Positions 1-5,635 of a stretch of 5,635 nt of DNA are shown here, piece after piece. Source of the stretch: an uncultured Lysobacteraceae bacterium (GTDB lineage Bacteria > Pseudomonadota > Gammaproteobacteria > Xanthomonadales > Rhodanobacteraceae); assembly GCA_946480705.1 (NCBI GenBank), contig CAMLLF010000303.1, positions 1 to 5,635 on the forward strand, written 5' to 3'. Position 1 is the first letter of the stretch, and the number at the start of each line of letters is the position of its first letter. The notes under the pieces were generated by a model, which saw only the letters and a list, made by a program, of their open reading frames with translations, was not told the origin of the DNA and did not search any database. The position numbers were made by a program, and so were the translations under genes.

Positions 1-115
1 CGAACTCCCACTGGGCCTCGGTCGGCAGGCGCACGCCGGCCCATGCGCAATAGGACTTCGCGTCGTTCCAGGAGACGTGCACGACCGGGTGGTCCTCGAG
101 GTCGTCGATGCCGGA
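1..115 (-). other. Fragment of a formylglycine-generating enzyme (FGE/SUMF1-type) domain joined in frame to rnr
   Basis: The last 38 visible codons of the leftward frame include [20 protein letters not shown] followed by [11 protein letters not shown]. This is the hallmark run of the FGE-sulfatase (SUMF1/EgtB/PvdO-like) fold, where (D)[25 protein letters not shown] is typical. It belongs to the middle of such a domain. The domain's beginning is absent and its end, with the usual catalytic or variable region, lies outside the window. RNase R has nothing like it at this point; E. coli continues with GRREARIVRVL. The exact breakpoint lies somewhere in 110-124, where both sides are GC-rich. The sequence cannot say whether this member is an oxidase, an ergothioneine-type enzyme or a binding protein. 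Confidence 0.8.
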
Positions 116-835
116 GCCGCGCCGGTCGACACCGACGATGCTGCCGAGCACGCGGTCGCCGTGCAGCACCTTGCGCATTTCGTAGGGCGACAGATACAGG
201 TCTTCGCCGCCGGCGTCGGGCTTCAGAAACCCGTAGCCGTCGGGATTGGCGAGCACGACGCCGGGCACGAGGTCGAGCTTCTGCGCGACGCCGTAGCCGC
301 CGCGACGGTTCTGGATCAACTGGCCGTCGCGCAGCATCGCGGCGAGCCGTTTCGTCAGCGCGCCGAAATCGCGCTCGTGCGTCAGCGACAGCGCTTTCGC
401 GATCGCTTCGGCATTCATCAGCTGGCCCTGCTCGACGAGAAACGCGAGCAACGCCTCGCGGCTGGGAATGGGATGTTCGTAGCGCTGCAGCTCGCGTTCG
501 GCGAACGGATCGGCTGTGACGGTCGCGGCGGCGCCCGTGCCGCGCCGCGGCTTGACGGTTGCGGCGTCCGCCGCCTGCTTGCGCGATCGCGCCGGCGCGC
601 TTTCGGCCGGCGCCTTGCGCGGCTTGGCCGACTCGGCCGCCGCGGCGATGGCTGCCATCTTGCGCAGCGCGGAAGGCTTCGGCCCGGCGGCGGCCGGCGC
701 CGTCGGCACCGGCGTGGGCGACACCGCGGCACGCTTGCTCCGCGCAGCGGCGCCCGCCTCCGGCATCCAGCCGGGACGTGCGGTTTTTTTCGCGCCGGCG
801 CGCGCCGGTGTATTCGTAGTCCGTGTTTTCTTCAT
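1..835 (-). CDS. rnr: RNase R N-terminal part, running in frame into an FGE-like segment; 3' end outside window
   Basis: RNase R is a processive 3'-to-5' exoribonuclease that degrades structured RNA. The frame is open from ATG at 835 to the window edge (278 codons). Residues 1-108 are a low-complexity Lys/Arg/Ala/Pro extension. Residues 109-127 ([19 protein letters not shown]) match the family's start, which is DPFQEREAEKY in E. coli. A winged-helix segment follows to about 177 ([19 protein letters not shown]). An OB/cold-shock domain spans about 180-240 ([32 protein letters not shown]). After Gly240 the RNase R sequence stops and FGE-like sequence follows, so the second OB domain, the catalytic RNB domain and the S1 domain are not visible. 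The start is supported by a purine-rich GAGAGAG a few bases upstream; because the extension is poorly conserved, in-frame ATGs at residues 24 and 60 are alternatives. The gene is divergent from tRNA-Leu. The RNase R identity is firm; whether the product is natural is not. Confidence 0.82.
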
Positions 836-894
836 GTGCTCTCTCGTGGAATGAATCAGCCTCGCCGACCTGCGCAGCGATTGCAAGCCAAGCG

Positions 895-923
895 TTGACA
901 AGCCTGCTAGCGCTCCCTATAGT
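895..923 (+). promoter_or_regulatory. Sigma-70-type promoter of the tRNA-Leu gene
   Basis: A perfect -35 box TTGACA (895-900) and a -10 box TATAGT (918-923) are separated by exactly 17 bases. They lie about 40 bases upstream of the mature tRNA 5' end, so transcription should start near 929-931. The bases after the -10 box (TCGCGGCC) are GC-rich, like the discriminators of stringently controlled stable-RNA promoters; ppGpp control is inferred from that alone. A 10-base palindrome, CTTCGCGAAG (931-940), falls at or just after the expected start site. Confidence 0.8.
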
Positions 924-965
924 TCGCGGCCTTCGCGAAGCGGCAAACGCATCGCGCAGGCACCT

Positions 966-1050
<85 letters not shown>

Positions 1051-1059
1051 ATCGATGAA

Positions 1060-1088
1060 CAGAAGGCCCGCCTAGCGCGGGCCTTCTG
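1060..1088 (+). terminator. Hairpin terminator after tRNA-Leu
   Basis: A perfect 12-base-pair stem (CAGAAGGCCCGC at 1060-1071 with GCGGGCCTTCTG at 1077-1088) encloses a 5-base loop, starting 10 bases after the tRNA CCA. The position and strength suit a tRNA terminator. There is no T-run after the stem (CCGTCTGG follows), so termination may be incomplete or the hairpin may mainly define a 3' end. Confidence 0.65.
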
Positions 1089-1139
1089 CCGTCTGGACGA
1101 TTGAAAGCCGCCCTCAGCGCGGCGTTTCGGGGGAATGCC

Positions 1140-1697
1140 ATGGCAAGCCTGTGTCCGCATTGCAAAGATCGCAGCCTCAGTCCGTCGCGCATCGAAGCCG
1201 ACCTTCCGGCTCTGTCGTGCGACGGTTGCGGCGGCAGCCTGCTTTCCCTCGTGGCCTATCGCCACTGGCGCGAGCATCAGCCCGGTCAGGCCGCCGTCGA
1301 CACGACCGACGATAGCCTCGACGAAGTCAAGGACACGTCCATCGCGCTGTGCTGCCCGAAGTGCCAGCACTTCATGACGAAGTTCCGCATGAGCGCCGAT
1401 GCGCGCAACCAGATCGACCTCTGCGTGCATTGCGACGAAGCCTGGCTCGACCGCGGAGAGTGGCAGCTGCTCGACCGCCTCGCGCTCGCCGGCCGGCTGA
1501 CGCTGGTGTTCACGCAGCCCTGGCAGAACCGCGTGCGCTCGACCGAGGCGGAACGCCGCGCCGAGCAGCGCTGGGGCGAGCGCCTCGGCGAACACTACGA
1601 ACGCGCGCAGGAACTGCGCGAATGGCTGCGCGGCAATCCGCAGGCGCGCGAGATCCTCGCTTACGTCAATCAGGTTCGCGACGACATTCCGTTGTAA
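1140..1697 (+). CDS. Zinc-ribbon (zf-TFIIB-like) protein, 185 aa
   Basis: This small, probably cytoplasmic protein has two treble-clef or zinc-ribbon modules. CxxC pairs lie at residues 5/8 and 27/30 (module 1) and at 72/75 and 95/98 (module 2), enough to bind one zinc ion each. Module 2 ends in CVHCDEAWLDRGEW, close to the WLDRGEL signature of the bacterial zf-TFIIB family. Residues about 130-185 are highly charged and look helical. The function is unknown: family members are usually annotated only as zinc-ribbon proteins, and DNA binding should not be assumed. The ATG at 1140 was chosen because GGGGGA (1129-1134) lies 5 bases upstream and CPHC follows directly; an in-frame TTG at 1101 would add 13 unconserved residues. 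The gene follows the tRNA hairpin by about 50 bases with no clear promoter of its own, and it converges on the VOC gene. Confidence 0.85.
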   Translation: MASLCPHCKDRSLSPSRIEADLPALSCDGCGGSLLSLVAYRHWREHQPGQAAVDTTDDSLDEVKDTSIALCCPKCQHFMTKFRMSADARNQIDLCVHCDEAWLDRGEWQLLDRLALAGRLTLVFTQPWQNRVRSTEAERRAEQRWGERLGEHYERAQELREWLRGNPQAREILAYVNQVRDDIPL

Positions 1698-1758
1698 ATC
1701 TGTATATCCGTAGCCATTGCGGCCTTGCGAATCCAAGCTCAGGAATGCGGGAAGAGGA

Positions 1759-1799
1759 GTGAGAAAACAGAGGCGCAGACCGCGCACTATTTTTCTCAC
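1759..1799. terminator. Possible bidirectional terminator between convergent genes
   Basis: GTGAGAAAA (1759-1767) and TTTTCTCAC (1791-1799) are perfect 9-base inverted arms. Between them is a short GC-rich inner repeat (GCGC at 1773-1776 and 1782-1785). The A-tract, GC core and T-tract layout can read as a terminator from either strand. It sits in the 131-base gap between the 3' ends of the zinc-ribbon gene and the VOC gene, where such an element is expected. The inner stem is weak and the loop is long, so the call is tentative. Confidence 0.45.
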
Positions 1800-1828
1800 G
1801 CCGCTTCACTCCTTGTTTTCAGAAGCGC

Positions 1829-2248
1829 TCACGCGGGCCCCGGCGCCCCCTTGAACTCGACCGTGTTGCCTTCGATGTCGTCGAAGTACAGTGAAGGTCC
1901 CTCGCCTTCCGCGCCGTAGCGCGAGCCGTAGTCGCCCGGCTTCACCCCGTGGGCGGCAAGATGGGCGCGGAGCGCATCGAGATCGAACGGCTCGATGCGC
2001 AGGCACAGGTGATCGAGATTGCGCCCTTGCATACCGGGCGCAGCGCCGCCGGCGCGGCCGAGCTTGCCGTCGACACCGACGATGTCGATCAGCGAACGGC
2101 CCGCACGCAGCTGCACGAGTCCTATCGCATCCTGGCGCTTCTCGATGCGGCAGCCGACGACGTCGCAGTAGAAGCGCACGAGCGCTTCCTGGTCGCGCGC
2201 GCGCAGCACGAGATGATCGATTTCGCGAATCCGGAACGGTGGGGTCAT
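1829..2248 (-). CDS. VOC-family (glyoxalase/dioxygenase-fold) protein, 139 aa
   Basis: This is a single-chain vicinal-oxygen-chelate protein with two beta-alpha-beta-beta-beta modules. Module 1 opens with REIDHLVLRARD and then FYCDVVGCRIEKR; module 2 opens with NLDHLCLRIEPFD and ends with LYFDDIEGNTVEFKG. Likely metal ligands are His12, His80 and Glu131, with Asp55 (SLIDIV) in the usual place of the fourth. Length is normal for the family. The substrate cannot be told: VOC proteins include glyoxalase I, fosfomycin-resistance enzymes, dioxygenases and isomerases. The start is the ATG at 2248, just before the first conserved strand; no strong ribosome binding site is visible upstream. It lies 59 bases after purA on the same strand, with a strong hairpin in that gap, so it may be the tail of the purA operon or separately transcribed. 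Confidence 0.87.
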   Translation of the reverse strand: MTPPFRIREIDHLVLRARDQEALVRFYCDVVGCRIEKRQDAIGLVQLRAGRSLIDIVGVDGKLGRAGGAAPGMQGRNLDHLCLRIEPFDLDALRAHLAAHGVKPGDYGSRYGAEGEGPSLYFDDIEGNTVEFKGAPGPA

Positions 2249-2270
2249 TGGGCTCGGCAAGGCGGGTATT

Positions 2271-2299
2271 CGCGCGCCGGCCGCAGCGGCCGGCGCGCG
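2271..2299 (-). terminator. Strong stem-loop between purA and the VOC gene (terminator-like, no U-tract)
   Basis: A perfect 13-base-pair all-GC stem (2271-2283 with 2287-2299) encloses the three-base loop CAG. It starts 8 bases after the purA stop codon. On the transcribed (minus) strand the stem is followed by AATACCCGCC, so there is no U-run for classic intrinsic termination. It may stabilise the purA mRNA 3' end, lower expression of the VOC gene, or help a factor-dependent stop. It is also close to a perfect DNA palindrome. Confidence 0.5.
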
Positions 2300-2307
2300 G
2301 CGTCCGA

Positions 2308-3874
<1,567 letters not shown>

Positions 3875-3877
3875 CGC

Positions 3878-4741
3878 TTATTTGCTGGTGTCGAAATAAC
3901 GCAGGAGCTCGGACTTCGGGTCCAGCAGCAATACGCCATTTCCGTTACGGAACGACTCGCGATACGCCTCGAGGCTGCGCACGAAGGCGTAGAACTCGGG
4001 ATCCTTGCCGTAGGCGGCGGCGTAGATCTCGGCGGCTTTCGCGTCGCCTTCGCCGCGCACCGACTGCGCGGTCTTGTTGGCCTCGGCGATCAGCACCTGG
4101 CGCTGGCGGTCGGCGTCGGCCTGGATGGTTTCGCCGGCTTCCTTGCCGCGCGCGCGCAGGTCGTTCGCGACCTGTTTGCGCTCGGCGCGCATGCGCTCGT
4201 AGACCGACGTCAGCACCGTGCCTTCCTCGGGAAAGTTGATGCCCTTGATGCGCACGTCGACGATCTGGATGCCGAGCGAGCTGCGCGTCGCCGCGTTCGC
4301 CTTGTCGCGCACGTGCGTGGTGATGTCGACGCGGCCGTCGGCGATCAGCTCGTGCAGCGGACGCGCGTTGAACTCGAAGCGCAGCGCATCCTTGACGATC
4401 GGCGTCAGGCGCAGCGTGGCCTGGTCTTCGGCGCCGCCCGACGCGCCGTAGTACAGCGCGACATCGTCGATCTTCCACTTGACGTAGAAGTCGACGAGCA
4501 CGCTCTTCTTCTCGGACGTCAGATAGCGCTCGGGCTTGGTATCCAGGCCGAGGATGCGCTTGTCGAAACGCAGCACCTGCTGCACGAACGGCAGCTTCCA
4601 CTGCAGGCCGGGCTCGTAGCCGGCGCGCACGATGCGGCCGAACTGCAGCAGCAGCGCGGTCTCGCCTTCGCGCACGACGAACGTGGAATTGATGCCGAGC
4701 AGCACGAGCAGCGCGGCGATCATCGCGACGAACGATTTCAT
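3878..4741 (-). CDS. hflC: HflC, SPFH-domain modulator of FtsH protease
   Basis: HflC pairs with HflK in a large membrane-anchored cage that surrounds and modulates the FtsH protease, with most of the protein on the periplasmic side. The protein is 287 residues and complete. An N-terminal signal-anchor helix spans about residues 4-22. The SPFH/band-7 domain follows (VVREGETALLLQFGRIV, GLQWKLPFVQQVLRFDKR, then the sheet region to about 175, GIQIVDVRIKGINFPE). A long charged helix spans about 181-245 (YERMRAERKQ, IQADADRQRQVLIAEANK, VRGEGDAKAAEIYAAAYG), and then the conserved DPEFYAFVRSLEAYRESF. The ATG overlaps the hflK stop as ATGA and is preceded by GGAGG 6 bases upstream, so the two are tightly co-translated. 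The C-terminal tail (VLLLDPKSELLRYF) is typical. Nothing looks broken. Confidence 0.97.
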   Translation of the reverse strand: MKSFVAMIAALLVLLGINSTFVVREGETALLLQFGRIVRAGYEPGLQWKLPFVQQVLRFDKRILGLDTKPERYLTSEKKSVLVDFYVKWKIDDVALYYGASGGAEDQATLRLTPIVKDALRFEFNARPLHELIADGRVDITTHVRDKANAATRSSLGIQIVDVRIKGINFPEEGTVLTSVYERMRAERKQVANDLRARGKEAGETIQADADRQRQVLIAEANKTAQSVRGEGDAKAAEIYAAAYGKDPEFYAFVRSLEAYRESFRNGNGVLLLDPKSELLRYFDTSK

Positions 4742-5635
4742 TGCTGGCCTCCCCGCGCCGTGCGCGTGTCGTCAGTCGTGGGCAGCATCACGCCGGCACC
4801 GGGCGCGAGGCTCGTGGCTGCGGGAACGAGCCGGTCGGTGGGCACGTTGATCAGGCTGCGGCCGTCGGTCGCGTCGACGACCTTGGCGTTGTCGCGCAGC
4901 ACCGTCTGCATGGTTTCGAGATATAGGCGCTTGCGTGTGACTTCGGGCGCGGCCTTGTACTGCGTGATGAGCTGATTGAAACGGTCGGCCTCGCCTTCGG
5001 CGCGCGCGATGCGCTCGGCGCGATAGCCTTCGGACTCGGCCTTGATGCGCGCGGCCTGACCGCGCGCCTCGGGCACGACCTGATTGGCGTAAGCCTGCGC
5101 TTCGTTCTCGGTCTGCTGCTTGTTCTCGCGCGCGTTCGTCACGTCGTCGAACGCATCCTTCACCTCGTGCGGCGGCGCGACCGACTGGAAGTTCACTTCG
5201 GTCACGGCGATGCCGGCGTCGTAGCTGTCGAGCGTGGCCTGCAGCACTTTCTTGGTTTCGGCGACGAGTTCGGCGCCCTGCCCGGACAGGATCGTGTCCA
5301 TCGCGCTGCCGCCGATGACCTGGCGCACGGCACTCTCGGCCGCCTGCTTCACGGTCACGTTGTCGACGTCCTTGACGTTGAACAGATATTTCTCGGCGTC
5401 GCTGACCTGGTACTGCACGTTGAAATCGATCTGGACGATGTTCTCGTCCATCGTGAGCATGCGCACGCTGTCGGCGAGCAGGCGCACGTCCTTGATCTTG
5501 ACCTTGGTCACCGTCTCGATCGGACGCGGCCATTTCAGATTGAAGCCGGGGCTCATGACGCGGGTCTTCTTGCCGAAGCGCTGCACGACACCGACATCGC
5601 GCGCATTGACGACGCTCCAGCTGTCGAGCGCGACC
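4738..5635 (-). CDS. hflK: HflK, SPFH-domain modulator of FtsH protease (N-terminus outside window)
   Basis: HflK is the partner of HflC in the FtsH-regulating membrane complex. Only the last 298 residues are inside the window; the frame continues to the right edge, so the missing part should hold the Gly-rich cytoplasmic start and the membrane helix. The visible part opens within the SPFH domain (GVVQRFGKKTRVMSPGFN, then LKWPRPIETVTKVKI), continues with QIDFNVQYQVSDAEKYLFNV and RQVIGGSAMD, and then the long helix rich in Ala, Glu and Arg (NEAQAYANQVVPEARGQAAR, EGEADRFNQLITQYKAAPE). It ends in a low-complexity tail (RTARGGQQ). A GTG at 5586 is internal, because the upstream codons are clearly HflK-like and open. 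The TGA overlaps the hflC ATG by 4 bases. Confidence 0.96.
   Translation of the reverse strand, partial: VALDSWSVVNARDVGVVQRFGKKTRVMSPGFNLKWPRPIETVTKVKIKDVRLLADSVRMLTMDENIVQIDFNVQYQVSDAEKYLFNVKDVDNVTVKQAAESAVRQVIGGSAMDTILSGQGAELVAETKKVLQATLDSYDAGIAVTEVNFQSVAPPHEVKDAFDDVTNARENKQQTENEAQAYANQVVPEARGQAARIKAESEGYRAERIARAEGEADRFNQLITQYKAAPEVTRKRLYLETMQTVLRDNAKVVDATDGRSLINVPTDRLVPAATSLAPGAGVMLPTTDDTRTARGGQQ

Follow-up and report, generated by a model that had tools for sequence, protein, structure and literature searches.

A complete RNase R also has a C-terminal S1 domain, and a complete FGE/SUMF1 domain carries catalytic cysteines. In this work we describe a window (the whole stretch of DNA that was analysed, 5635 bases) in which parts of these two protein families are joined in a single reading frame, and we compare it with the closest described systems. 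The rnr gene of Tahibacter caeni BUT-6 (L006), representing the Tahibacter type, is 89% identical in DNA to bases 116-513 of the window and 96% identical in protein over the matched part, and the hflK-side gene order of a second T. caeni contig (L031) matches that of the window; however, T. caeni rnr goes on with the RNB motif, whereas the window changes to FGE at 115/116. Similarly, FGEs (PF03781) from Streptomonospora, Microbacterium, Brachybacterium and Ramlibacter match the window fragment, a block of 26 residues included, but the fragment covers only 40 of the 255 profile positions. A further parallel is provided by misassembled or chimeric contig ends, which a passage of PMC4270193 describes for viral metagenomes. 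The parallel lies in foreign sequence within about one read length of the end and in a clean join; the artefact proposed for the present window is judged from sequence comparison.

Gene content of the window and the frame at its left end

The features of the window are as follows.

1..115, minus strand: mid-domain fragment of an FGE/SUMF1 domain (PF03781), 38 aa, which runs off the window end (Pfam)
116..118, minus strand: the join, a GGC glycine codon (comparison with both parents, and BLASTN alignment ends)
116..835, minus strand: 5' part of rnr, an ordinary chromosomal gene truncated by the join (NF008648, PF08206, relatives L001-L006)
966..1050, plus strand: tRNA-Leu (CAG) (ARAGORN)
1140..1697, plus strand: Zn-ribbon (TFIIB-type) protein (PF13453), which adjoins rnr in L001, L002, L003 and L005
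1829..2248, minus strand: VOC/glyoxalase family protein (PF00903 on 1841-2248, the frame running to a stop at 1829)
2308..3600, minus strand: purA, adenylosuccinate synthase (NF002223)
3683..3874, minus strand: DUF2065 protein (PF09838)
3878..4741, minus strand: hflC (TIGR01932)
4738..5635, minus strand: hflK, 5'-truncated at the opposite end of the window (TIGR01933)

The genomes nearest to the window belong to Tahibacter and to related Rhodanobacteraceae/Lysobacterales MAGs. The order hflK-hflC-DUF2065-purA-VOC-Zn ribbon-rnr is complete in L001 and L003 and recurs with one gene undetected in L002 (VOC) and L005 (DUF2065), while L027 and L031 have the hflK-side order in common up to the Zn-ribbon gene and both end within the rnr N-terminus; in the window the tRNA gene sits between the Zn-ribbon gene and rnr. 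Because gene order is conserved in relatives, the sequence to the right of 116 is judged ordinary, and on these comparisons window 116-5635 is the ordinary rnr region of a Tahibacter-like bacterium. The window is probably a whole short contig that breaks off within rnr at one end and within hflK at the other.

On the minus strand, the frame running from 835 to 2 is open for 278 codons and reaches the left end of the window. Its residues 1-240 represent the N-terminal part of RNase R, comprising an Ala/Lys/Pro-rich N-terminus, a winged-helix region and the first OB domain, and residues 241-278 represent a piece of an FGE/SUMF1 domain, with each half scoring far above chance. The OB domain was matched by Pfam at residues 192-241 (OB_RNB, PF08206, E 3.6e-16), and the best NCBIfam match of the first part, over residues 107-241, was RNase R (NF008648, E 7.6e-36, with 123.7 bits set against a cut-off of 982 for the full-length protein), so that both the N-terminal region and the OB domain of RNase R are represented. 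The RNB catalytic domain, required for RNase R, is absent from the window, which switches to FGE at 115/116. The FGE-sulfatase match (PF03781, residues 239-278, E 1.5e-15) lies above the curated cut-off (58 bits vs 23.3) over profile positions 81-120 of 255 only; these 40 of 255 positions are the only FGE part in the window, which ends before the remaining domain.

The RNase R side ends in GVDRRG and is followed in the same frame by the FGE fragment at window 1-115. We place the join at 115/116 because BLASTN alignments to the rnr genes of relatives end there: for 22 of the 24 rnr loci (L001-L021 and L023) the alignment reaches window 116 or 117 and no further; the alignment to L022 stops at 147, and L024 yielded no rnr DNA segment. 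An in-frame junction between RNase R and an FGE/SUMF1-type domain had been proposed at 105..130 in the initial annotation, and both Pfam and BLASTN bear it out. The GGC glycine codon at 116-118 is compatible with both parents, RNase R (VDRRG) and FGE (e.g. GPGSGI), the latter compared as protein only, and therefore up to 3 nt may be common to the two at the join, a possible microhomology.

The rnr gene in relatives

Of 32 loci fetched, 24 carry rnr across the join point, the others having FGE-side matches only or the rnr N-terminus only, and in all 24 RNase R continues for 585-667 codons past the join point with an RNB motif. None of the 24 is fused. Two proteins are especially close to the window: metagenome protein P0013 shares 100 of the 101 residues leading to the join and beyond it reads as a normal RNase R with RNB, and P0091 matches the 80 residues preceding the join without a difference and likewise goes on normally, with a frame change farther along. 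More broadly, a protein search in which the 7995 candidates with most words in common were scored gave 172 RNase R matches; among the 120 of these that were listed, a normal continuation was scored in 107, and of the other 13 some carry tails of another kind and at least six terminate at the join or close to it. An FGE tail occurs in none of these 120 listed RNase R matches (of 172), nor does an RNase R part occur in any of 120 listed FGE matches (of 432).

A family-wide search yielded the same picture. With a query of 120 aa spanning the join, 193 of 197 genomes from the family of T. caeni gave an RNase R match, every one of which ended at query residue 83 or 84, that is, at the join. An FGE match, from query residues 81-83 to 120 at 59-68% identity, was found in five genomes (G093, G113, G114, G170 and G178); it is separate from rnr in four of them, and G113 had no RNase R match at the threshold used. 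Three of the 197 genomes had no match to the query, and in none of the 197 did a match span both the RNase R and the FGE side. The same join is thus found in no independent genome among the 24 loci, the 120 of 172 and 120 of 432 listed protein matches and the 197 family genomes. The conditional suggestion of a cell without catalytic RNase R at this locus finds no support.

Source of the FGE piece

Among the 120 listed FGE matches (of 432), identity to the FGE piece is 72-86%, and these come from varied bacteria; its relatives include Streptomonospora, Microbacterium, Brachybacterium and Ramlibacter, together with many other sequences. FGE-domain genes are present in all seven of the nearest genomes checked. 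In eight genus-level genomes, the RNase R part shows 94-99% identity where it is matched, and the best identity to the FGE piece is 65%. The genus's own FGE genes were considered as the source of the piece and are unsupported at this level of identity. A looser FGE comparison gave 69% in two loci, spanning just 13 residues, and the separate FGE matches within the family reach 68%.

At the DNA level, the best match to bases 1-125 in the seven nearest genomes had 80% identity across some 50 bases (E 1.4e-5). A DNA search of 147 family genomes, scoring six candidates per genome, matched 40, with partial matches only and the best-scoring at 89-91% over about 45 bases; a donor FGE gene was found neither in these 147 genomes nor in the other genomes searched. 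Furthermore, the surroundings of rnr in 26 loci of relatives (as much as about 8 kb to either side, some loci being short) yielded no FGE gene, with the same queries detecting 28 of 30 control loci.

Composition was also considered. The FGE piece has a GC content of 0.687, and its codon score ranks at the 37th percentile among 1373 host windows. Its GC3 is 0.95 vs 0.81-0.91 in host genes, and it uses the serine codon TCC in 3 of 3 cases vs 8 of 68 in host genes, features that hint, only weakly, at a foreign source. Codon use and GC do not set the piece apart from the host, and this test of foreign origin is indecisive.

The genome of L002, a Rhodanobacteraceae MAG (G002), has twelve FGE-domain matches, of which six lie in open frames that are 870-993 aa long; six other genomes have between two and five matches each.

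Explanations for the join

The join is, with high confidence, best read as an artefact at a contig end, arising from a chimeric read or a misassembled end, since relatives, including a near-identical sequence, carry a normal rnr. Chimeric assembly at a contig end had been ranked first at the outset, and the comparative evidence from relatives, P0013 and the 197 genomes favours that ranking. The join lies 115 bases from the window end, within about one short-read length, and the combination of a foreign piece at the end (taking the window end as the contig end) with a normal gene in the near-identical P0013 and P0091 is that of a chimeric contig end. A chimeric read or a false end extension would be expected to leave a foreign piece cleanly joined this close to the end (115 of 5635 bases). 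Bases 1-115 would then derive from an FGE gene, most likely that of another organism in the same sample. A chimeric library molecule or read may have brought them in, or the assembly may have been wrongly extended at a thinly covered end, and the glycine codon common to both parents could have helped. The organism would then make no fusion protein and presumably retains an intact rnr. Only short, imperfect repeats are found among those listed for the window, with none tied to the join.

Four findings count against an artefact, and the first two also speak for a real rearrangement: the frame is kept across the join; the FGE piece resembles the host in composition and codon use and is not out of place; FGE-domain genes do occur in the genus and family; and a donor FGE gene was found in none of the genomes searched. 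The first was held in the initial annotation to have odds of about one in three and hence to be weak evidence for a natural fusion; we agree, the chance for two pieces on the same strand being about one in three.

A strain-specific deletion, inversion or insertion that brought rnr together with an FGE gene from another part of the genome, breaking rnr, is improbable. The occurrence of FGE-domain genes in seven of the seven nearest genomes would make such an event conceivable; against it, the FGE genes of the eight genus-level genomes reach at most 65% identity to the piece, none of the 26 loci has an FGE hit around rnr, the near-identical P0013 has a normal rnr, and the join sits at the window end. 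The more specific proposal that rnr had been fused to a neighbouring FGE gene finds no support in these 26 relative loci. More improbable still is that an acquired FGE gene was placed in frame inside rnr in one strain, which would leave the cell with a hybrid protein in place of its normal RNase R.

A genuine functional fusion of the RNase R N-terminus to FGE, for which the in-frame join and the Pfam scores of both halves might be cited, is scarcely credible, since its FGE part would begin at profile position 81 of 255, the RNB domain is missing in the window, and a second case is absent from the listed protein matches, the 24 loci and the 197 family genomes. A literature search for a fusion of RNase R with a formylglycine-generating enzyme returned a single cyanobacterial genome paper. 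The suggestion of a genuine new fusion protein lacks a second example in anything searched, and on these sequence comparisons the RNase R-FGE join is unsupported as a new protein and almost certainly not a real feature.

The artefact reading serves mainly as a warning: two real domains joined in frame where a sequence ends can be mistaken for a new fusion protein, and here comparison with a handful of relatives speaks strongly against one. Left unflagged, the present join might pass into protein databases as a false RNase R-FGE architecture.

The Ala/Lys/Pro-rich, low-complexity rnr N-terminus (window ~510-835) is also an assembly breakpoint in two relatives. In T. caeni, contig L031 ends, and contig L006 begins, in or near this region, and the same break at the rnr N-terminus is seen between contigs L027 and L004 of the bin79 MAG. 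A 298-codon open frame lies opposite rnr on the plus strand (window 2-898) and is probably a shadow frame of GC-rich coding sequence.
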